Assembly: GCA_937904325.1 (NCBI GenBank)
Contig: CALGTK010000123.1
Span: forward strand, 1 to 49,479
Origin: an uncultured Planctomyces sp.
GTDB taxonomy: Bacteria; Planctomycetota; Planctomycetia; Planctomycetales; Planctomycetaceae
DNA: 49,479 bases
Direction: 5' to 3'
The notes under the pieces are model-generated. The model had not been told where the DNA came from. It was given only the letters and a program-made list of their open reading frames with translations, and searched no databases. Made by a program: the position numbers and the translations under genes. Below, one piece after another: positions 13,725 to 49,479 of the stretch. Positions within the stretch are counted from its first letter, which is position 1. Every line of letters starts with the position of its first letter.

Positions 13725-13800
13725 TTCCTACCGGTTTTGGCCCGCTCGGCGACCGTCCGACAGCGGGACAGAACCTCGCCAGTCTCACTTCCTACCGGTT
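13725..13800 (+). repeat. Direct repeat ttcctaccggtt, two copies, before the DUF1549 gene
   Basis: Identical 12-mers at 13725-13736 and 13789-13800 have starts 64 bp apart and sit directly before ATG 13812. The spacing is about six helical turns, compatible with a pair of regulator sites, but chance or a small duplication cannot be excluded. Confidence 0.45.
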
Positions 13801-13811
13801 CGACTGTCGCC

Positions 13812-15449
13812 ATGTTCCGACTCTGCCTCACCATTGCCTCGATTTTTCTTTGCGCACAGGTTCCGCTGAGCGCTGCCGAGATGCTCCCAGCCGATCAGCC
13901 GATGGAATCGGTCATCGACCATTACGTCGACGATCTAATCAAAACAAACGACGTGCAAACGGCGTTGCAGATCGACGAGCACATTCTGGTTCGCCGCTTG
14001 ACGCTCGACCTCGCCGGGCGCATCCCAACGACAGCCGAACTGCACGCTTTCGTATCTAGCGATCCAACTACACGCCGAGCTGAACTTGTTAATAAGTTAC
14101 TGGCGAGTCCCGACTTCATCGACCACCACCGAAACGAGCTGCAGGTCCTGCTGGAATATCCTGCCCGCCGCAACGACAACGACTTTCGCAAATACCTACT
14201 ATGGGCAACCGAACAGAACCGGCCGTGGGACAGCATGTTTCGAGACATGCTGGCTGGCGACGAAAACGACGAGTACCAAAAAGCGGCGTTGCAGTTTGTC
14301 AAACACCGAGCCAAGAGCCTCGACGACCTGACGAACGACACTGCAATTCTCTTCTTCGGTGTCAACGTGAGTTGTGCGAAGTGCCACGACCACCCGCTCG
14401 TCGAAGACTGGAAGCAGGACCATTATTACGGCATGCAGTCGTTCTTCAGCCGAACGTACCTGACGAAGAAGCAGAGTCTCGGCGAGAAGTTCTATGGCGA
14501 CGTGAAATTCACCACGACGGCCGGTGTCGAGAAGCAGGCTCAGTTCATGTTCCTGAATGGAGCCATCGTTAAAGATGGCACTCCGGAGCTGAACGACGAT
14601 TCCCGCAAGAAGTACGACGAACTCATCAAGAAACTGCAGCAGGACGACAAAGTCGAAGTGTCGTACCCGGAGTTTCGTCCGCGAGAGCGACTCGTCGAAA
14701 CGGCCTCACACAAAGACAACGACGCCTTCCTGGCACGCAACATCGTCAACCGAATCTGGCAACGCCTTACCGGTCGAGGCATCGTCGATCCGCCCGACCA
14801 GTTGCACTCTGAAAACTTACCAAGCCATCCCGAGCTACTCGACTGGCTCGCGCGAGACACGGTAGAACACGAATACGACCTCAAACGTCTGATCCGAGGC
14901 ATCGTTCTCAGCAAGAGTTACTCACGGTCCAGTGAGTGGAACTCTGCCGCCGACCCACCGTCATCTCACTACTTCGCCGTGGCCATTCCACGGCCATTAT
15001 CACCACGCCAGTATGCAATGTCACTGCTGGTCGCCACTCGCAACCCTCCTCACTGGGAACAGTGGCTCACGAAACCGTCCGAAGACTGGAAGAAGGAGCG
15101 CACCGGCCTGGAGAATTCCACAAACAGCTGGGACGACACTTTCGAAATTCCTGGCGAGAACTTTCAGATTGCCGTCGACGAAGCGCTCTTCTTCAGTAAC
15201 AACGACCGAATCGAAAACGATTTTTTGCGGGACTCCGGCGACCGACTCGTCGGACACTTGAAGAAGCTGGACGATCCGCAGGCGGCGGTTTCAGCAGCCT
15301 TCGCAGCAGTAAATTCAAGACCGCCGACCAAAGACGAAAAAAAAGTCATTGTTGAATATCTGGATTCCCGCAAAGACGATTCTCCAGCGGCGATCAAGCA
15401 GGTCGTCTGGGCACTTTTGACCGGCCCGGAACTTCGCTTTAACCACTAA
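13812..15449 (+). CDS. DUF1549/DUF1553 domain protein
   Basis: A secreted protein of 545 residues. ATG 13812 starts a signal peptide (MFRLCLTIASIFLCAQVPLSA); the in-frame ATG at 13737 adds 25 non-signal residues and is rejected. The DUF1549 region has the family hallmark (ILVRRLTLDLAGRIPTTAEL, LLASPDF) and a single heme-type CAKCHDHPLVEDW site near residue 192. The DUF1553 region follows (LARNIVNRIWQRLTGRGIV, LIRGIVLSKSYSRSS). The N-terminal PSD1 cytochrome domain of the longer relatives, such as the product of 46418-49288, is missing. These proteins are a planctomycete expansion usually paired with DUF1501 genes, as here, and are thought to act in polysaccharide use or envelope functions, without a proven reaction. 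Confidence 0.88.
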   Translation: MFRLCLTIASIFLCAQVPLSAAEMLPADQPMESVIDHYVDDLIKTNDVQTALQIDEHILVRRLTLDLAGRIPTTAELHAFVSSDPTTRRAELVNKLLASPDFIDHHRNELQVLLEYPARRNDNDFRKYLLWATEQNRPWDSMFRDMLAGDENDEYQKAALQFVKHRAKSLDDLTNDTAILFFGVNVSCAKCHDHPLVEDWKQDHYYGMQSFFSRTYLTKKQSLGEKFYGDVKFTTTAGVEKQAQFMFLNGAIVKDGTPELNDDSRKKYDELIKKLQQDDKVEVSYPEFRPRERLVETASHKDNDAFLARNIVNRIWQRLTGRGIVDPPDQLHSENLPSHPELLDWLARDTVEHEYDLKRLIRGIVLSKSYSRSSEWNSAADPPSSHYFAVAIPRPLSPRQYAMSLLVATRNPPHWEQWLTKPSEDWKKERTGLENSTNSWDDTFEIPGENFQIAVDEALFFSNNDRIENDFLRDSGDRLVGHLKKLDDPQAAVSAAFAAVNSRPPTKDEKKVIVEYLDSRKDDSPAAIKQVVWALLTGPELRFNH

Positions 15450-15464
15450 GCAGGGTGGGCACTG
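15450..15464. repeat. REP-like palindromic repeat, half-element
   Basis: The 15-mer gcagggtgggcactg is the exact reverse complement of 9824-9838. It starts at the base after the DUF1549 stop codon, and the full palindrome at 15516-15532 lies in the same 103-bp gap. Confidence 0.6.
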
Positions 15465-15515
15465 CCTGCCAATTATGAAGCTCCCGTGAGCGACGCTCGC
15501 GAATCACTAAAACAT

Positions 15516-15532
15516 GGTGGGCGATGCCCACC
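15516..15532. repeat. REP-like palindrome (ggtgggc-gat-gcccacc)
   Basis: Perfect 7-bp arms around gat, followed by ctacg. It shares the gcccaccct core with the element at 9824-9838. It sits 20 bp before the DUF1501 start, between two genes likely to be co-transcribed, where such stem-loops can set relative mRNA stability. Confidence 0.65.
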
Positions 15533-15552
15533 CTACGAGGCAGGAGTTGATC

Positions 15553-16860
15553 ATGGCACAACCCGAAAGCATCTTTTGTGGATCGGCCGATCATGGTTTG
15601 TCACGACGAGGATTCCTGGGAGCAGCCGGAGCAGCAACAGCAGGTACCTTCGCCGCAGACATGACGCGCCTCGACGGGCTGAAGAATCCGCTTCTGGCGG
15701 GCCAAGTCAAACGCCAGCAAAAGAGCGTGATCCTGCTCTGGCTGGCCGGAGGTGCCAGTCAGTTCGAGACGTGGGATCCAAAACCCGGCCAATCGACCGG
15801 CGGCCCTTACGCCAAAATCAAAACAAGTGCCAACGACGTTCACATCAGCGAGCTGCTGCCGAAGATGGCTCAACGAATGAACCACACCGCGATCATTCGC
15901 TCGATAAATTCGAAAATCGGTGACCACGGCGGCGGCGCTTCGCTCATGGAAACCGGGCGTGTAAAAGATCCAGGCCTGATCTACCCGGACATCGGCGCCA
16001 TCGCTGCCAGAGAACTCGGACGTGCTGACAGCCAGGTGCCGGACTACGTCTCGATGTACACGTCGACCGAGGGTCGACGCAAAGGCACCAGCGGATTCCT
16101 TGGTGCCCGTTACGCTCCAATGTTTCTTTCCGACAAGCAGATTCCAGACAACATGCGACGACTGGACGCAATCTCCGATATCGACCACCAGGACCGAGCG
16201 GCTCTGCGTGATCTCCTCTCTAACCGATTCATCAAGGCGCGGCACAGCGAAAAGATCAATAGTCACACGACGGCTTACAGTCGCGTTCACGGTTTGATGT
16301 CCAGCGAGAAACTGTTCGACATCGAGCAGGAGCCAGAGTCTGTCCGAGCCAAATACGGCCCTCGCCAGTTCGCTCAGCAGTGCCTGATCGCTCGCCGACT
16401 TGTCGAAGCCGGAACTCCATTCGTAAAAGTCGCTCGGGCATGGTGGGACAGTCATGGCCAGAACTTCGAAACTCATCGTGAACTCTGTGCAGACCTTGAT
16501 CATGCTATGAGCACACTGCTCGATGACCTTGAAGAACGCGGCCTGCTGAAAAATACGCTGGTCGTCACGCTTGGAGAATTTGGTCGCACGCCAAAGATCA
16601 ACGCAAGTCTGGGACGCGACCATTTCGCGAACGCCTGGAGCTGCAGCCTGTCCGGTTGCGGAGTCCAGGGCGGCTCGTTCTACGGCAGGACAGAACCGGA
16701 AGGTAACACCGTGGCCGATGGCGAAGTCGGAGCCGCTGAAGTCTTCGCAACCATCCTCGAAGCACTCGGCATCGACCACGAAAAAGAATACATGATCGGC
16801 TCTCGTCCGATACCTCTGTCAGACTTCGGTGCAAAACCAATCAAGCAAGTGCTTGCATAG
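15553..16860 (+). CDS. DUF1501 family protein
   Basis: A 435-residue protein. ATG 15553 has aggag 7 nt upstream; the earlier ATG at 15514 would read through the REP-like palindrome and is rejected. The N-terminus carries a TAT-like signal (LSRRGFLGAAGAATAGTFAA), so export in folded form is likely. Features of the DUF1501 / alkaline-phosphatase-like fold are SVILLWLAGGASQFETWDPK, the conserved GDHGGGASLMETGR region, and VVTLGEFGRTPKIN with GRDHFANAWS, where Asp/His/Glu could bind metal. The family belongs near the sulfatase/phosphatase superfamily but has no established substrate. It follows a DUF1549/DUF1553 gene by 103 bp, the standard planctomycete pairing. Confidence 0.88.
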   Translation: MAQPESIFCGSADHGLSRRGFLGAAGAATAGTFAADMTRLDGLKNPLLAGQVKRQQKSVILLWLAGGASQFETWDPKPGQSTGGPYAKIKTSANDVHISELLPKMAQRMNHTAIIRSINSKIGDHGGGASLMETGRVKDPGLIYPDIGAIAARELGRADSQVPDYVSMYTSTEGRRKGTSGFLGARYAPMFLSDKQIPDNMRRLDAISDIDHQDRAALRDLLSNRFIKARHSEKINSHTTAYSRVHGLMSSEKLFDIEQEPESVRAKYGPRQFAQQCLIARRLVEAGTPFVKVARAWWDSHGQNFETHRELCADLDHAMSTLLDDLEERGLLKNTLVVTLGEFGRTPKINASLGRDHFANAWSCSLSGCGVQGGSFYGRTEPEGNTVADGEVGAAEVFATILEALGIDHEKEYMIGSRPIPLSDFGAKPIKQVLA

Positions 16861-37556: not shown

Positions 37557-38245
<689 letters not shown>

Positions 38246-38265
38246 CAAATGCTAGTCAACGCTAG

Positions 38266-38688
<423 letters not shown>

Positions 38689-38747
38689 TTAAGAGCTATC
38701 AGCCAGCTTTCGCACAGCATGGTGCGAAGATGTAAAGCAGGCTCAAT

Positions 38748-38778
38748 GAGGCAGAGAGAAGTAACGTCTCTCTGCCTC
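38748..38778. terminator. 12-bp perfect stem-loop between the second PII gene and glnD
   Basis: Arms gaggcagagaga and tctctctgcctc are exactly complementary around agtaacg. The stem is followed only by ttcg, so termination would be partial at best. Its place, 59 bp past the PII stop and 102 bp before glnD ATG 38881, fits attenuation that makes more PII than GlnD. It also argues against reading glnD from 38719, which would place the hairpin within the coding sequence. Confidence 0.6.
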
Positions 38779-38880
38779 TTCGACTGCGCAGGCAGCACTC
38801 CGTCGGGGAAATCTGCATCCGTGGTTGCCGCGTCGCGAGGCACAATTGCCTTGCCCACGATATTTATCAGCTATGCCTCA

Positions 38881-41592
38881 ATGAGAACTGTGTCCACGAC
38901 GATGTCGACTGAAACTCCCGCAGAACGAATTCAAAGACGCAAACAGGCTTTGGAAAAGATCCGGGAGCGTGCCGCAAAACTTTTCGCAGAAGGTGCGCAA
39001 GGGATGCAGATCGCGTCCTGGCTTTCGGACGCGATGGACACTTATACGATCGATATCCTGAAAGGGACGCTCGAAGACTTTACCGAAACAGAGCAATCCG
39101 AACTCGAACAAAACTCTGCAATGATCGCGATTGGTGGCTCGGGAAGAGGAGAAGTCGCACCGTACTCCGACTCCGACTTGATCTTCATCTTTCAACCGCG
39201 AATCGCCGATCTGATCTCGCGGCTGACCAAAAAAATCGTGCCTGACTTCTGGGACGCTGGTATCAAGCTGGGGCAACGCGTCCACACCGTCCGCGACGCC
39301 GCCACCAGCGCGATTGCCGACCCCCATCTCGCATCTTCACTCGTGTATGTACGCACGTTATGGGGCAACGACGATCTGGCGACCCAGCTGAAAACTCAAT
39401 TCTATCGAAAAGTCGTGCGAGCAAGACGTCGGATTTTCGTTGAAGATTGCATCGAAGGGCGAAACGAAGAACGCTCGACCCACGGAGCGAATGGCCAGCA
39501 ACTTGAGCCCGACGTTAAGAAGTCGTTGGGCAGTCTGAGAGACGTCCACCTTCTGCAGTGGATTGCGTTTGCTCATTACCAGACGTCAGACATTGACTCG
39601 CTGCGTCGACGGAACGTGCTGACGCCTGACGACGCTTCACGATTAAAGCGAGGCGTCGAATTTCTGACGCGAGTCCGTATAGACCTGCATCTTCACGCCG
39701 GGAAAGCAAACGACACTCTTTCAAAAGACGAGCAACTACGAATTGCAGAAGCACTCGAAATCTCACACGTTGAAGGTCAGCGGCCAGTAGAGCGATTCAT
39801 GCAGGAGTATTTTTCTCACAGCATGGCAATCGCCGAAATTTCCCAGCGATTCGTAAGCCGGCATCGAGGTCGCACCATTTCATCGACTCTGAAACGGCTG
39901 GTGATGTCGCATCGTGTTAATCGATACTTTGCCCTTAGTGAAGGCGAGCTCGACGTCGCACCGTCACATCTTCCGAAAATTTGCAACACGCTCGAAGACA
40001 TCCTGAAGATCTATCATTCCGCGGCCATGTATCAAGTGAGCCTGTCACCGCGACTGATCGAAGCCATCAAGTCAACAGCTCGCAATCTTCCATCGGGACC
40101 GTCACCGGAAACGTCGCGACTGTTCATGGAAATCCTGGGGACGGTCGGCCTCTGTAGTGTAACGGTCCGAAGTATGCACGACACCAACGTACTTGAACTT
40201 GTGATTCCCGAATGGCACCGAGTACGTTGCCTGTTGCAGTTCAACCAGTACCACCACTTCACGGTCGACGAGCACACGCTTCGATGTCTGGAAATCTGCG
40301 AGGGCTTCGCCGAAGAAGATTCACCGGTCGGCGCGGCTTATCGAAATACGCATTCGAAGCAGTTGCTCCATCTCGCGTTGATTCTTCACGACGCAGGAAA
40401 GGGATTTGAAGAAGACCACAGCGAACTTGGCTGCCGCATGGCTTTGGATATTTGTCAGAGATTAAAACTGAACCAGCACGAAATCGGTATCGTCTGCTTT
40501 CTGGTACATAAACACCTGAAGATGGCCGATCTTGGCTTTCGATATGACACGACTGATCCACAAGTCGTACTCGAATTCAGCCACGAAGTTGGTTCGGCCG
40601 AGAAACTCAGGATGCTTTATGTATTAACTGCCGCCGACGTCAGCGGCGTTGGTCCGGGCGTGTGGACCGCCTGGAAAGCCGATCTACTGGCAGATTTCTA
40701 CAAGCGACTGATGACGACACTGAGCGGTCTGCCACCCAGGTTTCACGAGGAAGAACGACTGCGGGAAATTCGTGAACACGTCTACGATTCGATCGTTCCC
40801 CAGGAACCGGAATCAGAGGAAATCGCGAATTCCTTGCGGCAATGGGTCGACAAGCAATTGGACGGTTTCTCGTCTCAGTATTTGACAATGACGCCCCCCC
40901 CGATGATCGCCCGGGATCTCGACATCATTCGCAGTCTGGAGCCCGGCGACATTCGAGTGGACGGACGATACGATCAAATCAGCGGCACGACCGACTACCA
41001 CGTCATTGCTGACTCGCAATACTCACGAGGTGGTTTCCATCGTATTTCTGGGATGCTGACTGCTCGGCACATGAAGATTCTTGGAGCCGAAATCACAACA
41101 AGTTTTGATGGAGTGATCGTCGACACATTTCACGTCATCGACGAAGACTTTTCCGGCATCGTCCCACAGGCACGCATCGACGAAGTCGCTGACTCAATCA
41201 TCCAGGGCTTACGGCAGGAAGTCACTGCGAAGGAGTTGTTCCAGAAATATCGGCGGTTTGCCACAGAGGCATCGGAAACACCAACGATGGGCTTGCCAAC
41301 GCGAGTAGAAGTCGACACCGACACTTCGGATAAGTCGACGATCGTTCTGGTCTTCGCACATAACCGCCCTGGCTTGCTCTACACCATCTCAAGAACGCTG
41401 TTCAAGCTCGACTTATCCATTGATCTCGCGAGAATCTCTACTCACTTCGATCAGGTCGTCGACGTCTTTTACGTGACTGACAACGAAGGCAGGAAGATTA
41501 CATCCAAAGAAAAGTGCCAGTCGATCTGTGATCGGATGATGGAAGAACTGGAGAAGTTCGAACAGTCGACGTATCGCGAATTCGTGTCATGA
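38881..41592 (+). CDS. glnD: [Protein-PII] uridylyltransferase / uridylyl-removing enzyme
   Basis: A 903-residue bifunctional enzyme that uridylylates PII at Tyr51 under nitrogen limitation and reverses it when glutamine is high. The nucleotidyltransferase site is IGGSGRGEVAPYSDSDLIF (85-101, catalytic Asp pair). An HD phosphohydrolase domain follows (HTLRCLEICEGF, ILHDAGKGFEEDHSELG with His503-Asp504). Two ACT domains complete it: about 705-770 (RGGFHRISGMLTARHMKILG) and 820-895 (VFAHNRPGLLYTISRTLFKL). Length and domain order fit GlnD. ATG 38902 is an alternative start; the frame open back to 38719 is rejected because of the hairpin and the lack of homology. Direct linkage to two PII genes is functionally ideal. 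Confidence 0.94.
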   Translation: MRTVSTTMSTETPAERIQRRKQALEKIRERAAKLFAEGAQGMQIASWLSDAMDTYTIDILKGTLEDFTETEQSELEQNSAMIAIGGSGRGEVAPYSDSDLIFIFQPRIADLISRLTKKIVPDFWDAGIKLGQRVHTVRDAATSAIADPHLASSLVYVRTLWGNDDLATQLKTQFYRKVVRARRRIFVEDCIEGRNEERSTHGANGQQLEPDVKKSLGSLRDVHLLQWIAFAHYQTSDIDSLRRRNVLTPDDASRLKRGVEFLTRVRIDLHLHAGKANDTLSKDEQLRIAEALEISHVEGQRPVERFMQEYFSHSMAIAEISQRFVSRHRGRTISSTLKRLVMSHRVNRYFALSEGELDVAPSHLPKICNTLEDILKIYHSAAMYQVSLSPRLIEAIKSTARNLPSGPSPETSRLFMEILGTVGLCSVTVRSMHDTNVLELVIPEWHRVRCLLQFNQYHHFTVDEHTLRCLEICEGFAEEDSPVGAAYRNTHSKQLLHLALILHDAGKGFEEDHSELGCRMALDICQRLKLNQHEIGIVCFLVHKHLKMADLGFRYDTTDPQVVLEFSHEVGSAEKLRMLYVLTAADVSGVGPGVWTAWKADLLADFYKRLMTTLSGLPPRFHEEERLREIREHVYDSIVPQEPESEEIANSLRQWVDKQLDGFSSQYLTMTPPPMIARDLDIIRSLEPGDIRVDGRYDQISGTTDYHVIADSQYSRGGFHRISGMLTARHMKILGAEITTSFDGVIVDTFHVIDEDFSGIVPQARIDEVADSIIQGLRQEVTAKELFQKYRRFATEASETPTMGLPTRVEVDTDTSDKSTIVLVFAHNRPGLLYTISRTLFKLDLSIDLARISTHFDQVVDVFYVTDNEGRKITSKEKCQSICDRMMEELEKFEQSTYREFVS

Positions 41593-42110: not shown

Positions 42111-44780
42111 CTATTCACGGGACGATGCAGCTTTCAGTTGCCCTGCAAACCACTCGGCGACAATTGTCTCGCTAGTTTCTGAGTTACCTGCCGCTCGATC
42201 AATCAGACTAAGATCCTGCGCTTTGACAAGTCGCCTGACCAGTTCGTCACTCGCATGAGCCTCGCCGGTATGCTCGACAACAGACGGGTGGACGACAACG
42301 CAATCCCACGTCGGCGGTCCGAAATTCAGGGACCAGTTCATCGTCCATGCAAATGAACTTGCAAATGCTTCGTCGGTATAAGCAGTTGCCAATATTGGCA
42401 CGGCAATCAGAACGAGGTCTGGCTTTGAAGCACGTACTCGTTTTTTAGCGTCCTGCTCGATCTCTGAGATCGACATCCCGTCAACCGACCACGATGTAAC
42501 CTGGACCTCAACTTCCTTGGCTCGACTTCGCAGTGCCGATTTAATCATTGAGTCGTACGGTGCCATTGCAAGAACACGAACTGGTTTGTTATTTCTGATT
42601 CTGGCGAGCGTTTGCTGCAGTGCAGGCTGCAAGGGTGGCACGTTTGCAAGCGACACTTTCAACCCGGTAGTCGTTTGAGCCAGTTGCCCCGCAAGTCGCT
42701 TGTGCCCGGCCATGTTCGGGTGAATTGAGTCGCTCATCAGAAGACGCCAGTCAAATGCGGCATTTGCACGAACTGCATTCAACTGTCGATACGCGTCGCA
42801 AACTGGAACGTCGAGTTCAATTCCGACATCGCGTACAACGTCACAGTATTGAATGAGCCTGCTAGTGGGACGGGACAGAGTATCGACCACATTGTTCGGT
42901 GTGGCGAGCACAACTTCCGCTCCGATACCACGGCACTTCTGGATAATTGTTTTGAGGTTCGCTCGATAATCGTCCAGCGAAACCCGAGTCATGTCGTTTA
43001 GCCCGAACATGACAGTGACAACGTCGGGTTTGTGGGCTAGCACATCGCGATCTATTCTCGACAACGCGTTGACCGTCGTGTGACCACTGATACCTGCGTT
43101 GATCATTTCGACATTGTCGCTGCCGGAAACTCGCCGCAATGCAATACCGAGCATGTCGGTATAGGCTCGCCGACTGCCGGAGTGGTAGTACACGCCGGTG
43201 ACGCTGTCTCCGAAGCAGACAACTTTGACAGGCTCGCCAGAGAGTAGTTTCTTTCGAATTACGAGCGAAGGCCCGATTGCCGTAACGAGAGCGGGCAGCG
43301 TCGCTTCCGCAAGCTTGCGGTGTCCGTCAGGGTTCGGGTGACAACCATCGGTCGTCCAGGCGTGGAGGTCCGCCCCGGCATTTCGAGCCGTCGACCAATT
43401 AGCGAAATGATCGACGAGCGGCACTCGCCATTCTTTCGCAACGTCACGACATGCCCGGACGAACGGTTCGAGCTTCGCGTTAGGGTTCTCGCCGATCCCG
43501 TTTGTTCCGGCTTTGTCGGACCATCGAGGCTCGGTCATCAGGACGGGTTTGATGCCGCGGCGAAGAAGTTCCGTCACGATCCTATTCAGATTTTTCCGGT
43601 ATTCGTCGACTGTTATGCGGCTGGTCGTTTTACCTTTATCGACATAACTGTCGTTCGTGCCGTACATGATTGTGACGACGTCCGGCTTGTGGCGCAACAC
43701 TCGATCAAAACGTTGAAGTGCCTGGTCGGTACGTTCTCCGCCAACGCCAACATTAACCACTCGAATCGACCGTCCGGCGGCGGCGAGTCGTTTTTCGACC
43801 AGCGAGGCAAACGTCTGCTCGACCGTGACGCCGGACCGGACACCTTTGGTGATCGAATCACCGAGCGTGACGATCGTTAGATGTCGCTGTTGCGGCTGAG
43901 TTTTTTCTTCGATGCTCAACAACGACTCCGCAAAAAGACGCCCGACTTCGAGAGTCCCTTTTGAATCGTAGTGAACCTGGTTAGCGATTGTAGCCGCAGA
44001 GGTGTCGACATATTCCCAGCGAGGATCGAACGAGGCCACCATTTTTTGCTGCTCGATTATCACCGGCACGAATTGGTTTCGACCTTCGAGAAATCTCGTG
44101 TTGACCGCAATTAATGCCGCCAGCTTTGGAACGTTGAGCTCTTTCCGTATAGATGTCAGCATGGCGTTCAGATTCTGAGCATAAATCACCGAATCGTTGG
44201 CGTTGGCATCGCTTTCGCCCTGCACCCACCCGAAAGATCGTGGGCGAAGTTCGATGCCGTCTTTCTTTGCCGCTTCGATCGCCGTGCGTATTTCGGAAAT
44301 CAGCGATCGATAGCACGCCCCAGACTCGCCAGGATCGGTGTGGTCCCAGTCCCGCCGCAAACCGGTTCCACTGAATGCAACTTTGATGACGGCGAGAGGT
44401 TTTTTTTCCCGAGCGTACATCGTTCGAGCAAAGTTAATTTCAGGACCAAAGCCGCCCCGGGGGTGGGTAAAATTTCCGTACTGCCGACCTTGTCTCGGCT
44501 TCTTCGGATCCCCCAATGGCTGGGCCTGCAGATGCAGCCATTTTCCGCCACTCGTTGAGTCATGCTTGTCCGGTGGAGGATCGCCGCACTTCCACCAGAA
44601 CATGATGTGCTGATCGGCCTCGTCCGTCAGCATCTCGTCGGGATCCGTGTCGGCGCCGACGGCATTCGACTGGCCAGCCACAATCAACAGATCAACCTGC
44701 TTCAGATCAGCGGCGTTCGCTGACGGCATGAATACGCTGCTTATGGCCAGGACAATGGCTACTGAAAGAATGCGTCGCAT
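42111..44780 (-). CDS. Secreted multi-esterase: SASA domain plus two SGNH domains and a degenerate third SGNH domain
   Basis: A protein of about 889 residues. ATG 44780 has agaagg about 9 nt upstream and a signal peptide (MRRILSVAIVLAISSVFMPS...); the frame is open to 44849. Domain 1 (about 25-295) is a sialate O-acetylesterase type (SASA) domain with LIVAGQSNAVGA (Ser38) and GWVQGESDAN. Domain 2 (about 300-505) is a complete SGNH hydrolase: TLGDSITKG, NVGVGGERTD, MYGTNDSY, DGCHPNPDGH. Domain 3 (about 518-712) is also complete: CFGDSVTG, NAGISGHTT, MFGLNDM, DSIHPNMAGH. Residues about 735-889 follow the same outline (VLAMAPYDSMIK, KPDLVLIAVP) but have lost the Ser, Asn and His motifs. The protein probably removes acetyl groups from complex glycans outside the cell. 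It lies downstream of the PSD1/DUF1501 pair. Confidence 0.88.
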   Translation of the reverse strand: MRRILSVAIVLAISSVFMPSANAADLKQVDLLIVAGQSNAVGADTDPDEMLTDEADQHIMFWWKCGDPPPDKHDSTSGGKWLHLQAQPLGDPKKPRQGRQYGNFTHPRGGFGPEINFARTMYAREKKPLAVIKVAFSGTGLRRDWDHTDPGESGACYRSLISEIRTAIEAAKKDGIELRPRSFGWVQGESDANANDSVIYAQNLNAMLTSIRKELNVPKLAALIAVNTRFLEGRNQFVPVIIEQQKMVASFDPRWEYVDTSAATIANQVHYDSKGTLEVGRLFAESLLSIEEKTQPQQRHLTIVTLGDSITKGVRSGVTVEQTFASLVEKRLAAAGRSIRVVNVGVGGERTDQALQRFDRVLRHKPDVVTIMYGTNDSYVDKGKTTSRITVDEYRKNLNRIVTELLRRGIKPVLMTEPRWSDKAGTNGIGENPNAKLEPFVRACRDVAKEWRVPLVDHFANWSTARNAGADLHAWTTDGCHPNPDGHRKLAEATLPALVTAIGPSLVIRKKLLSGEPVKVVCFGDSVTGVYYHSGSRRAYTDMLGIALRRVSGSDNVEMINAGISGHTTVNALSRIDRDVLAHKPDVVTVMFGLNDMTRVSLDDYRANLKTIIQKCRGIGAEVVLATPNNVVDTLSRPTSRLIQYCDVVRDVGIELDVPVCDAYRQLNAVRANAAFDWRLLMSDSIHPNMAGHKRLAGQLAQTTTGLKVSLANVPPLQPALQQTLARIRNNKPVRVLAMAPYDSMIKSALRSRAKEVEVQVTSWSVDGMSISEIEQDAKKRVRASKPDLVLIAVPILATAYTDEAFASSFAWTMNWSLNFGPPTWDCVVVHPSVVEHTGEAHASDELVRRLVKAQDLSLIDRAAGNSETSETIVAEWFAGQLKAASSRE

Positions 44781-44947
44781 CTGAAAAAACCTTCTTGAGT
44801 TCATGTTTGCAAGTCGCAGCCCGGAAAGTGCCATGCGAAATAACGACATCCAGAAAACACAAAACCGACGAAAGCACCATGGGTTTCGTGTTTTTCGTGG
44901 TTCAATCTTCTGCAGGGAAATTCGGAGAGCATTTCCAGAACAAGCTT

Positions 44948-46405
44948 TCAGGCAAGCAGTCCTTCAATGATGTGTCCCGGCTGGCCGTCGAGCAGCGTCT
45001 CTTCACGGCCGTTGCGTTTGTAGGTGAGTTGCTCGGGATGAATTCCGAACAGATGCAGAAGCGTAGCATGGTAGTCGTAGTGGTTGACGACGTCGGTGAC
45101 AGCGTGGTGTCCGAACTCATCGGTTGCACCGTACGTGCCACCGCGTTTGAAGCCACCGCCAGCTAGCCACATGGTGAAACCGTAGGTGTTGTGATCTCTT
45201 CCGACCTTACTCGGCCCGGTGTCATTCTGAATCACGGGGAGACGTCCCATTTCGCCTCCCCAATGGACGACCGTTGAATCCAGCATCCCTCGCTGTTTGA
45301 GATCTTTGACGAGTCCTGCAGCGGGACGCTCAGTCTTACGACAAGAAGCTGGCAGTGACGTGCGGATCGAGCCGTGATGATCCCAGTATTGATTCTTCGT
45401 AAAGACCTGAGCAAAGCGGACGCCACGTTCGATAAGGCGTCGAGCGATCAGGCAGCGAGTACCGTATTCCTGGCTGTCCGGTTGATCGATTCCGTACATC
45501 TGCTGAGTCGACTTTGTTTCTTTGGAAATGTCGAGCGCTGCTTGAGCAGCGGTCTGCATTCGCGCGGCGAGTTCGTAGTTCGAAATTCTCGCCGCCAGGT
45601 CGGAGTTCTGTGGATGATCCGTATGATGCTGCTCATTCAGTCGTCGCAGGTATTTCAGATACGCTTCCTGAACCAGCCCGCGTCGTGAGGCTGGTGGATC
45701 GAGATTCAGGATGCGTGGTTCCTGAGGTCGCACAACCGTTCCTTGAAACAGCGATGGTAGCCAGCCGTTTGACCAGTTTAGAACTCCTTCGACAGGAATT
45801 CCCCGTGGGTCGGTGAGTGCGACAAACGCCGGAAGATTCTGCGTCTCGGCACCAAGCCCGTACGTCAGCCAGCTTCCCAGAGACGGTCGACCGCGTTGCG
45901 TACGTCCAGAATTCATCGAATGAATCGACTGGCCATGATTATTCACTCCGGTACGCATGGAGCGAACAACCAGAATGTCGTCGACGACATCGGCGATGCT
46001 CGGCAGCAATTCCGACACGTCAGTGCCGCATTCTCCATACTTGCGGAATTTCCATGGGCTGCCAAGAACGCGTGAACTGGCCTGCGCCGCGTTGTCGTAT
46101 TTGATCGTGCCGGGAAACTTCTTCCCGTCGAGCCGATTCAATTCAGGCTTCGGATCCAGTAGATCAACCTGACTGGGGCCGCCCTGCATAAACAGCGAGA
46201 TCATCGCCTTTGCCTGGGGCTCAAAGTGCGTCGCTCGCCGCTCCAGCGAAATATCCTGTTCGTGAAGGTTCGGCTTGGTCGGCGCACCGAGTACGTCATC
46301 CTGCTTAAGCAGCCACGCCAAAGCAACGGGAGCCAGTCCGAACGCCCCGCTCTGACAGAAGTCGCGACGAGTTTGAGGTAGCTGTTGAGTGATTTGGTTC
46401 AACAC
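44948..46405 (-). CDS. DUF1501 family protein
   Basis: A 485-residue protein starting at GTG 46405. A TAT-like signal (TRRDFCQSGAFGLAPVALAW) precedes the DUF1501 core: MISLFMQGGPSQVDLLDPK, SMRTGVNNHGQSIHSMNSG, RCLIARRLIERGVRFAQVF, VVHWGGEMGRLPVIQND and GRDHNTYGFTMWLAGGGFKR. It has the alkaline-phosphatase-like fold with possible metal ligands His and Asp. It starts 12 bp after the PSD1/DUF1549/DUF1553 gene stop, so the two are surely one operon, and probably act as a functional pair. It is a paralogue of the product of 15553-16860, from the other DUF1501 branch (longer, with the GGEMGR motif). Confidence 0.9.
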   Translation of the reverse strand: MLNQITQQLPQTRRDFCQSGAFGLAPVALAWLLKQDDVLGAPTKPNLHEQDISLERRATHFEPQAKAMISLFMQGGPSQVDLLDPKPELNRLDGKKFPGTIKYDNAAQASSRVLGSPWKFRKYGECGTDVSELLPSIADVVDDILVVRSMRTGVNNHGQSIHSMNSGRTQRGRPSLGSWLTYGLGAETQNLPAFVALTDPRGIPVEGVLNWSNGWLPSLFQGTVVRPQEPRILNLDPPASRRGLVQEAYLKYLRRLNEQHHTDHPQNSDLAARISNYELAARMQTAAQAALDISKETKSTQQMYGIDQPDSQEYGTRCLIARRLIERGVRFAQVFTKNQYWDHHGSIRTSLPASCRKTERPAAGLVKDLKQRGMLDSTVVHWGGEMGRLPVIQNDTGPSKVGRDHNTYGFTMWLAGGGFKRGGTYGATDEFGHHAVTDVVNHYDYHATLLHLFGIHPEQLTYKRNGREETLLDGQPGHIIEGLLA

Positions 46406-46417
46406 CGGATCGTTCTT

Positions 46418-49288
46418 TCAATCAACGTAGAGAAACCGACTCGAACTGAGCAAAGCCTGACAGAACACGCCCAATGCCTCTCGCGCGACGTCTTCTGCTT
46501 TGAGTTTTTGATCAGCTTTGGCGATCAGTGTCCGCTGTGCATAAACAAAACTGCTGGCCTCAGCGAGTTCTTCTTCAGATGAAGGTTTTGCAAAAGTCAA
46601 CTGCCAGGCAAGTGCAATCTGCAAAGGAACGTCTTCACCAACATCGTCAATCACCCGTTGAGCCAGCTTGTTGGAATACTCGATTGAAAAATCGCTGTTC
46701 ATCATGAGTAGCGATTGTGGCGTGACCGTTGAAAAACTTCGGCGGTCGCAATTGGGACTCATCGTTGGGGCATCGAACGTTTCAAACATCGACAGTGTGC
46801 GGGAACGGCGGACCTGCACGTAGACGCTGCGGCGAAATTCTTCTCCGGCCAGGTCAATCGTCTTTGTCGGCTTACGTTCTCCATCGAGATTCTCTTTGCC
46901 GATAACAACGCGGCCGACGCCGTCTTCCATCACCGGCACGGCATCACCATAAAGCTTTGAGTTGAGCTGATCGGTGACCGCAAGGACCGTATCACGGATG
47001 ACCTCGGACTCCAGACGACGGACAGGAAACGCCGAGTAAAATGATGGCTGCGAGTCGCTCGCACGTCGCGATTTCGACATTGACGACTGTCGATAAACAG
47101 TCGAAGTCATCATCAGTCGGTGAAGATGCTTGACGCTCCAGCCATTGTCAACGAATTCGGCAGCCAGCCAGTCAAGAAGACCGGGGTGCGTTGGTCGCTG
47201 GCCAAGGACTCCGAAGTCGCCGGGTGAGTCGACCAAACCTCGTCCGAAGTGGTGCATCCAGATGCGGTTGACAATGACTCTGGCAACTAAAGGATGCTCG
47301 CCGTTCGTCAGGTGTTTTGCGTAGGCCAGACGGCGACCGGTGCTCGGTAGTGAGGAATCGTTCGCATCGATCTTTGGTCCCTGATTCAGAATCGAAAGGG
47401 ATCCGGGAAGAACTTTGTCTTTTGGCTGCTCGTGATCACCGCGGTAAAAGACGAAGGTGGCAGGCACAGTGCTCGCTACTTCGTTCAGACTTCTTAGAAA
47501 TCCTTCCTTCGGTTTGGTGCTGCGAATCTCGGCGGCGCGGTCGGCATAAGACTTCAGATCGACCGCCGCCTTGCTGGATCGCAATTCTTTGGCGGTCTCG
47601 ACGTCAGTTTGCAGTTCGGCGGCAGCTTCCGGATTGAACTTCGAAAGTTCAGCTGCAGTGACCAGAACTCCAGGATACTTCGCGAGCAACGCCTGTTGAG
47701 CATCATTTCGCTTGTCAGTTGCAGTTTTTAAGGCGGCTCCGACTTCTACTTTCAGTTCAGGAGAAACTTTTCCGAGCTCACGTTGCTGGGTCTCGGCAAC
47801 AAACTTTTTTTCCTTGACGATACGGTCGGCATCGAGCTTCCTCGCTCGTTCGTCTCGGCGGCGATCATAAAGATAGAGCGACCCGACACTGATGCTGGCA
47901 ACGCTGGGATACTCTTTCAGCAAGGCCTTCTGATCGTCGTTTCGTTCCTTCGAGACTGTTCGGTAGGCCTTGCGAAGTGGCTCACGGTTTTCTTCCGGAA
48001 CCAGCAGCAGTTCTTCTTCGAGAGTACGCGTGATGTACTTGTCTGCTTGTTTCTGGCGTTCCTGGTCAACCACCACGGCTTCGGCTTCGATCTTCTTTGC
48101 TAGCTCGATGTTGGCGTCCGTGTAGAGTGAGATTTGTCGCGTTGGCGGCGTCCGCCATTTCTTCCAGTTGAGTGCTGGTTCGAAGATCGCTCGCATTCGG
48201 TAGTAGTCCACGGTGGGAATCGGGTCGTAGCGATGATCGTGGCACTGAGCGCAGTTTACGGTCAGGCCGAGAAGCGATGTGCCGACAATCTGCATAGTGT
48301 CCGCGATGACCTGATTGCGAGCGACCGACTGGTCGATTCCGCCTGACGCCGTTCCGTCTGGAGCCATTCGCAGGAAACCTGTCGCTGTCAATTTCTCGAT
48401 CGCGTCTGGTGGCATATTTTTATGCGGCAACGGAACCATCTCGTCCCCCGCAAGTTGCTCACGAATGAACTCATCAAAAGGCTTGTCAGAATTGAAAGCT
48501 CGAATAACGTAATCGCGATACCGGAACGCGTGACTGCGGACTCGGTCCTCGTCGGTGTAGCCTTCGGAGTCGGCATACCCAGCGACATCGAGCCAGTGGC
48601 GTCCCCACCGTTCACCGTAAGCCGGCGAAGCAAGGAGCTGATCGACAAGCCGTTCCCACGCAACGGGCGATTCATTGTCGATAAATGCCGCCACGTCGGC
48701 AGGCGTCGGAGGCAAGCCAATAAGATCGAACGATACCCGCCGAACAAGGCGGAACCGATCGGCGTCCGCCGAGAAGCTCTCACCGTCTTGCATTTCGGCC
48801 AGCAGAAACGCGTCGATCGGAGTTCGCACCCGACTGGTGTCCGGCAAGTTTGGGATGGCAGGTCGTCGTACTGGTTGGAACGCCCAGTAGTTTCGCTCTT
48901 CTTCGGTAAAGAGCGGACCATCGCCGATCTCGGCTGGTTCTTCACGAACGGTCTTCGCGCCGGACTTGATCCAGGCTTCCAGCGTTTGGATGTCAGCTTC
49001 ACTGAGTCGTTTATCATCGCCGGGCGGCATCTCTCCGCTGCGAACTCGCTCTACGAGATAACTTGCGGCCGGAGTGTTTTCGACAATTGCCGGACCGGAT
49101 TCACCGCCCGCAGCGATAAACCGCCGAAGTCTTAGATCAAGCCCGCCCTGTTTCTCTTCAGCTTCACCGTGACACTGAAAACAATGAGCCTTCAGGATCG
49201 GCCGGACATGACTTTCAAATGTCACATCAGAGCCAACCGACGGGATTGCTGAGAGAACAATGAGCACGGGTACAAGGGAACGCAGCAT
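46418..49288 (-). CDS. PSD1/DUF1549/DUF1553 secreted cytochrome c-type protein
   Basis: A protein of about 956 residues. ATG 49288 gives a signal peptide (MLRSLVPVLIVLSAIPSVGS); ATG 49342 is an alternative. The N-terminal planctomycete cytochrome domain PSD1 has heme motif CFQCHGEAE (36-40) and the distal SGEMPPGDDKRLSEADIQTL. DUF1549 follows (RLVRRVSFDLIGLPPTPADV, GERWGRHWLDVAGYADSEGY) with a second CAQCHDHRYDP near residue 347. A charged helical segment of about 240 residues lies between DUF1549 and DUF1553 and contains a near-duplicate (KERNDDQKALLKEYPSV and DKRNDAQQALLAKYPGV). DUF1553 completes it (LVARVIVNRIWMHHFGRGLV, PTHPGLLDWLAAEFV). Redox-linked roles in polysaccharide use are suspected for this family. 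Operon partner: DUF1501, 12 bp downstream. Confidence 0.9.
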   Translation of the reverse strand: MLRSLVPVLIVLSAIPSVGSDVTFESHVRPILKAHCFQCHGEAEEKQGGLDLRLRRFIAAGGESGPAIVENTPAASYLVERVRSGEMPPGDDKRLSEADIQTLEAWIKSGAKTVREEPAEIGDGPLFTEEERNYWAFQPVRRPAIPNLPDTSRVRTPIDAFLLAEMQDGESFSADADRFRLVRRVSFDLIGLPPTPADVAAFIDNESPVAWERLVDQLLASPAYGERWGRHWLDVAGYADSEGYTDEDRVRSHAFRYRDYVIRAFNSDKPFDEFIREQLAGDEMVPLPHKNMPPDAIEKLTATGFLRMAPDGTASGGIDQSVARNQVIADTMQIVGTSLLGLTVNCAQCHDHRYDPIPTVDYYRMRAIFEPALNWKKWRTPPTRQISLYTDANIELAKKIEAEAVVVDQERQKQADKYITRTLEEELLLVPEENREPLRKAYRTVSKERNDDQKALLKEYPSVASISVGSLYLYDRRRDERARKLDADRIVKEKKFVAETQQRELGKVSPELKVEVGAALKTATDKRNDAQQALLAKYPGVLVTAAELSKFNPEAAAELQTDVETAKELRSSKAAVDLKSYADRAAEIRSTKPKEGFLRSLNEVASTVPATFVFYRGDHEQPKDKVLPGSLSILNQGPKIDANDSSLPSTGRRLAYAKHLTNGEHPLVARVIVNRIWMHHFGRGLVDSPGDFGVLGQRPTHPGLLDWLAAEFVDNGWSVKHLHRLMMTSTVYRQSSMSKSRRASDSQPSFYSAFPVRRLESEVIRDTVLAVTDQLNSKLYGDAVPVMEDGVGRVVIGKENLDGERKPTKTIDLAGEEFRRSVYVQVRRSRTLSMFETFDAPTMSPNCDRRSFSTVTPQSLLMMNSDFSIEYSNKLAQRVIDDVGEDVPLQIALAWQLTFAKPSSEEELAEASSFVYAQRTLIAKADQKLKAEDVAREALGVFCQALLSSSRFLYVD

Positions 49289-49479
49289 GATTCGAATACC
49301 GCTGAGAGGAGTAAAGCGACCATTGTCCACTACTCGACGCATCAACGCAACGCGATATGTAGTGATCTGGAAATTGGAGTTATTGGTGCATCGTTTCTTT
49401 TAAATGTCAGGCGTAAATTCGTGACTAGAGCGTCGCATCGTTAAGAATTATTAAGAGTAACGCCATCCTGGCAGTTTGA

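Follow-up and report, generated by a model that had tools for sequence, protein, structure and literature searches.

The window, a stretch of 49,479 nucleotides from an uncultured Planctomyces sp., carries on its reverse strand a four-domain esterase gene whose domains are named here SASA, G1, G2 and C (Table 1). The ATG at 44780 has the Shine-Dalgarno box AAGAAGG 9 nt upstream; the open frame itself starts earlier, at 44849. The signal-peptide-like start ends in SANA before AD, which suggests that the protein is secreted.

A DUF1501 gene lies 98 bp from the longest frame of the esterase gene and is preceded by a planctomycete cytochrome gene. The order PSCyt, DUF1501, esterase is kept in the congeners (L109-L111, of which L110 is cut by a contig end); in L112, from another genus, a non-orthologous PSCyt-DUF1501 pair (38-39%) occupies the same place. 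Nothing in the neighbourhood of the esterase gene names a substrate. In the genome (G000, 8.0 Mb), DUF1501 is matched at least 127 times and sulfatases about 150 times, and with so many DUF1501 genes the DUF1501 neighbour is uninformative on the substrate. A second PSCyt2-PSD1 and DUF1501 pair was observed in the same window, as were two tandem PII-like proteins adjoining a GlnD gene.

Table 1. Features of the window and of related loci; positions refer to the window unless a locus is named
Feature	Position or locus	Strand	Basis
Four-domain esterase gene (SASA - SGNH1 - SGNH2 - pseudo-SGNH), 889 aa, stop codon included	42111..44780	-	
Signal-peptide-like N-terminus, residues 1-23, MRRILSVAIVLAISSVFMPSANA followed by AD	44712..44780	-	read from sequence
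SASA (PF03629), residues 25-292; GQSN, QGE, VH motifs	43905..44708	-	Pfam and conserved residues
SGNH domain G1, residues 298-500; GDSIT, GGE, GTND, DGCHP conserved	43281..43889	-	Pfam and alignment
SGNH domain G2, residues 505-708; GDSVTG, SGH, GLND, DSIHP conserved	42657..43268	-	Pfam, structures, alignment
Domain C, residues 713-889, predicted SGNH fold without catalytic residues, obligate G2 follower	42114..42644	-	
DUF1501 gene, upstream, probable operon partner, order kept in genus	44948..46405	-	
PSCyt1-PSCyt2-PSD1 (planctomycete cytochrome) gene, upstream, 12 bp from DUF1501	46418..49345	-	
Second PSCyt2-PSD1 and DUF1501 pair	13737-16860	+	
Two tandem PII-like proteins (GlnB/GlnK-type)	37907-38688	+	by eye
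GlnD uridylyltransferase gene	38719-41592		
Full four-domain chain	L001, L009 (contig shared with L038), L010, L011, L012, L013, L014, L045		
Four-domain chain split over two contigs	genome of L015		
G1-G2-C without SASA	L016-L020, L040-L044, L046		
Partner: Kelch repeats	L117		Pfam
Partner: alpha/beta hydrolase	L032		Pfam
Partner: M23 peptidase and PKD	L030		Pfam
Partner: second SGNH	L021		Pfam
Partner: FAD oxidoreductase before G1	L074		Pfam
Sulfatase before SASA, SASA about 64% identical to that of the window	L120:7417-9699		Pfam
Propeller-like domain of about 390 residues, no Pfam name, fused to G1	L080:4870-6813		
Propeller-like domain of about 390 residues, no Pfam name, between G1 and G2	L118:6382-9432		

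The first three domains are motif-complete. The SASA match (PF03629) covers residues 29-288 (E 1e-23, 84.6 bits against a cut-off of 24.8), and the catalytic motifs GQSN (36-39), QGE (187-189) and H270 are kept in 11 aligned SASA sequences. The GDSL family (PF13472, E 1.4e-60) matches two stretches, both above the cut-off, at approximately 303-493 (best 306-488) and 509-700. G1 has blocks I (GDS), II (G), III (GxND) and V (DxxHP), with S309, N376, D478 and H481; the same blocks of G2 read GDSVT, SGH, GLND and DSIHP, with S526, N595, D684 and H687. These catalytic blocks are conserved across 48 G1 and 57 G2 sequences. The two SGNH domains are 33% identical to each other, and the closest solved relatives of G2, by both sequence and fold, are 1YZF, Axe2 and AlAXEase. 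Thus the Pfam matches and the intact motif blocks bear out the reading of the earlier note, one SASA and two full SGNH domains.

No match of C above the cut-off was found in Pfam or NCBIfam; PF25182 (NonGDSL) gives 19.7 bits (E 5.8e-4), under the family cut-off of 80 bits, and when the C profile was searched against PDB sequences, just two acyltransferases came up, neither of them significant (E 0.4-0.75). Profile-profile alignment of 57 C sequences with G2 gives E 9e-9 and takes in the lead-in helix before strand 1 (LARIRNNKPVRVLAM versus KKLLSGEPVKVVCFG). In the same kind of profile-profile comparison the probability is 6.5% for G1 and 0.2% for SASA. Since C matches the G2 profile, hardly G1 and not SASA, it was apparently copied from a G2-like domain. 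The AlphaFold2 model of C alone (pLDDT 87.4, pTM 0.84) has five strands alternating with helices. Almost all Foldseek matches of this model with E <1e-3 are SGNH esterases; other proteins, Rossmann-like ones among them, rank lower. The top VIA-align match, with Z 15.4 (3.0 A over 169 residues), is the SGNH part of RiCE17 (6HFZ).

The Ser loop of C is deleted in the profile alignment with G2, block III reads AVP in place of GxND, and neither GxND in block III nor D..H after strand 5 occurs in any of the 57 C sequences. With the catalytic Ser, Asn and Asp-His positions gone, C falls outside the active SGNH hydrolases; as modelled, it has the SGNH fold but not the chemistry that goes with it. This agrees with the earlier note, which had called the last domain an apparently dead SGNH domain: the profile match to G2, the confident model and the missing motifs all point the same way, and the C-terminal segment did not turn out to have an unrelated fold. 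Two details had to be adjusted. The domain outline described there is not due to chance, as shown by the profile match, but it extends over about 177 rather than about 155 residues. Similarly, the lack of Ser, Asn and His holds at the catalytic positions, but a conserved N815 and a common H831 stand elsewhere in C.

The distribution of C is tied to that of G2. In the first collection G2 directly precedes C in every frame that contains C (57 distinct sequences or loci), and a search with C only in 392 genomes of the phylum matched 19, with G2 directly before C in all 19. The searches for C covered Planctomycetota evenly and Verrucomicrobiota via close relatives, with five genomes of the latter in the C-only search. 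G2-type matches without C are limited to L015, L039 and L077, all cut by contig ends. G2 and C were folded as a unit; full-length alignment collapsed G1 onto the G2 of two-domain relatives. The resulting model (pLDDT 91.9; pTM 0.91, the latter being a global score) favours one rigid body. G2 accounts for the VIA-align matches listed for the pair, and none of these chains clearly spans both domains, which does not prove the arrangement new.

Residues W764, V790, P795, N815, W825 and D826 are invariant in 55 C sequences from Planctomycetota and Verrucomicrobiota, and Q855, S817 and D743 are near-invariant. As placed by the model, M739/P741, W764 and P795 would follow strands 1-3, at the former active-site end, and W812-N815 and W825-D826 would sit at the opposite edge from these strand ends. 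One explanation is that C is a pseudo-SGNH domain turned carbohydrate-binding module, whose dead pocket, lined with Trp and polar residues, holds a glycan and feeds G2. The invariant W764, P795, N815, W825 and D826 are consistent with it; W764 and P795 appear in the model after strands 2 and 3, the oxyanion places in active SGNH domains, and a ligand-binding pocket would fit the conserved residues at the ends of strands 1-3 equally well. There is also a precedent for non-catalytic glycan binding, CtCE2 of CtCel5C-CE2, in which the SGNH active site doubles as a cellulose-binding site (PMC2661963); CtCE2, however, retains the Ser-His dyad and esterase activity, whereas C has no catalytic positions. 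Moreover, carbohydrate-binding modules are portable, whereas C is found solely directly after G2 in the genomes searched. Together with the one-body model, this weakens the suggestion of the earlier note that C is a glycan-binding module in the usual sense, and we consider this explanation rather unlikely, although C may still touch carbohydrate.

The earlier note also took the architecture to be unusual. It is uncommon, but not unique, as no fewer than nine genomes carry the four-domain chain. Other chains consist of G1-G2-C without SASA, and in the remaining loci G2-C stands by itself or follows other N-terminal partners. On a quick tree of G2-C the G1-G2-C chains form one clade, explained by one change (SH-aLRT 91), and SASA requires three changes inside this clade. 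The pattern points to stepwise fusion, with a single joining of G1 to G2-C and an addition of SASA inside the resulting clade; SASA may also have been gained once, with later losses. The fusion of a sulfatase to a related SASA in L120 hints at a substrate that is both sulfated and acetylated. No PDB sequence match was found for the propeller-like N-terminal partner in L080.

The case for a sulfated-glycan substrate consists solely of this fusion in a relative and the genomic sulfatase matches. It is improbable that the fused esterases act on the envelope or matrix glycans of the cell itself and not on an environmental polysaccharide. The PSCyt/DUF1501 operon context, which is not a polysaccharide-utilization cluster, would agree with such a target, and SGNH proteins modify envelope polymers too (PMC9487903). 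However, the abundance of DUF1501 genes deprives this context of weight, and the partner domains found elsewhere, sulfatase and Kelch-type propeller, fit the breakdown of external glycans.

There is very little likelihood that C has activity through another set of catalytic residues, e.g. conserved Asp, Asn or Gln, so that the chain would have four activities: the strict conservation of N815 and D826 and the near-invariance of Q855, S817 and D743 would be expected of such a set, but none of these residues is at an SGNH catalytic position in the profile alignment, the Ser loop is deleted, and no other hydrolase family was matched. Compared with two congeners, dN/dS of C is 0.198 and 0.203, with 0.048-0.175 for the other domains (NG86; only pairs with dS estimable for every domain were used, L009 and L010). 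The rate of evolution of C is roughly double that of G2, as might also be expected if its role were a looser, accessory one. Still, dN/dS of approximately 0.2 and the invariant residues in two phyla show that C is not decaying. Hence the view of C as a third SGNH copy that has lost its function and is decaying, to which the loss of all catalytic positions and the faster evolution than in other domains might point, is ruled out by constraint and distribution, as there are no frame breaks and G2 accompanies C in 100% of the loci judged. The dead copy of the earlier note is better described as a long-standing partner of G2, conserved in both phyla.

Tandem SGNH esterases, position-splitting esterase pairs, a binding SGNH pocket and multi-modular planctomycete CAZymes are already known. 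RiCE17 of Roseburia intestinalis (RiCEX, CE17, PDB 6HFZ/6HH9) resembles G2-C in that an SGNH acetylesterase is combined with a non-catalytic partner domain, and its SGNH part, the best structural match to C, matches G2 with Z 22.8. However, the partner in RiCE17 is a CBM35 (PMC9487903), whereas the partner of G2 is SGNH-like by model, and thus G2-C does not have the combination of SGNH and CBM35 that characterises RiCE17-like CE17 proteins. RiCE2 and RiCE17 divide acetyl positions between them (PMC10492685); they are separate proteins, whereas the esterase units here form one chain. CtCes3 of Clostridium thermocellum (tandem CE3) likewise has two SGNH esterase domains per chain (PMC9487903), but these are 97% identical, far closer than G1 and G2, and the chain considered here has SASA and the pseudo-SGNH domain in addition. 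Axe2 of Geobacillus stearothermophilus, AlAXEase and 1YZF are single-domain proteins without a pseudo-SGNH partner. Planctomycetota CAZymes with three or more modules have been reported (PMC11131199), and the available part of that report describes no SASA-SGNH-SGNH-pseudoSGNH chain. Neither Pfam nor NCBIfam yielded the conserved pseudo-SGNH companion. The literature searched, mostly without subscription papers, gave no account of an SGNH esterase paired with an inactivated SGNH domain, which is weak evidence of novelty.

We consider it fairly probable that the gene encodes a secreted multi-catalytic carbohydrate de-esterase in which C is a fixed pseudo-subunit of G2. One chain would then combine a SASA acetylesterase unit, the SGNH esterase G1 and the two-domain SGNH esterase G2-C, with C as a putative duplicated SGNH domain that has lost the Ser loop, the oxyanion Asn and the Asp-His loop. 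We infer the activities of the units, the acetylated-glycan substrate and the structural role of C. To judge from the confidence of the model, C may pack on G2 and complete or shape the substrate cleft, or contribute to stability, probably without independent action. From one polysaccharide the three active units would remove groups that differ in position or in type, either acetyl or a related acyl, by analogy with RiCE2 and RiCE17 acting as separate proteins. Among kinases, pseudo-enzyme partners retained within one chain are a familiar arrangement. More tentatively, G2-C may be an undescribed esterase family of Planctomycetota and Verrucomicrobiota with the inactivated SGNH copy as a required pseudo-subunit, later built stepwise into a three-activity deacetylase that would strip several acyl positions from one glycan.

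If so, the chain would be a natural three-in-one deacetylase. Given that the genome has about 150 sulfatase matches, acetylated algal glycans, about whose esterases little is known, would be reasonable candidate substrates. Finally, the pairing of a catalytic with a dead domain, fixed across two phyla, lends itself well to studying what an inactivated copy is for.
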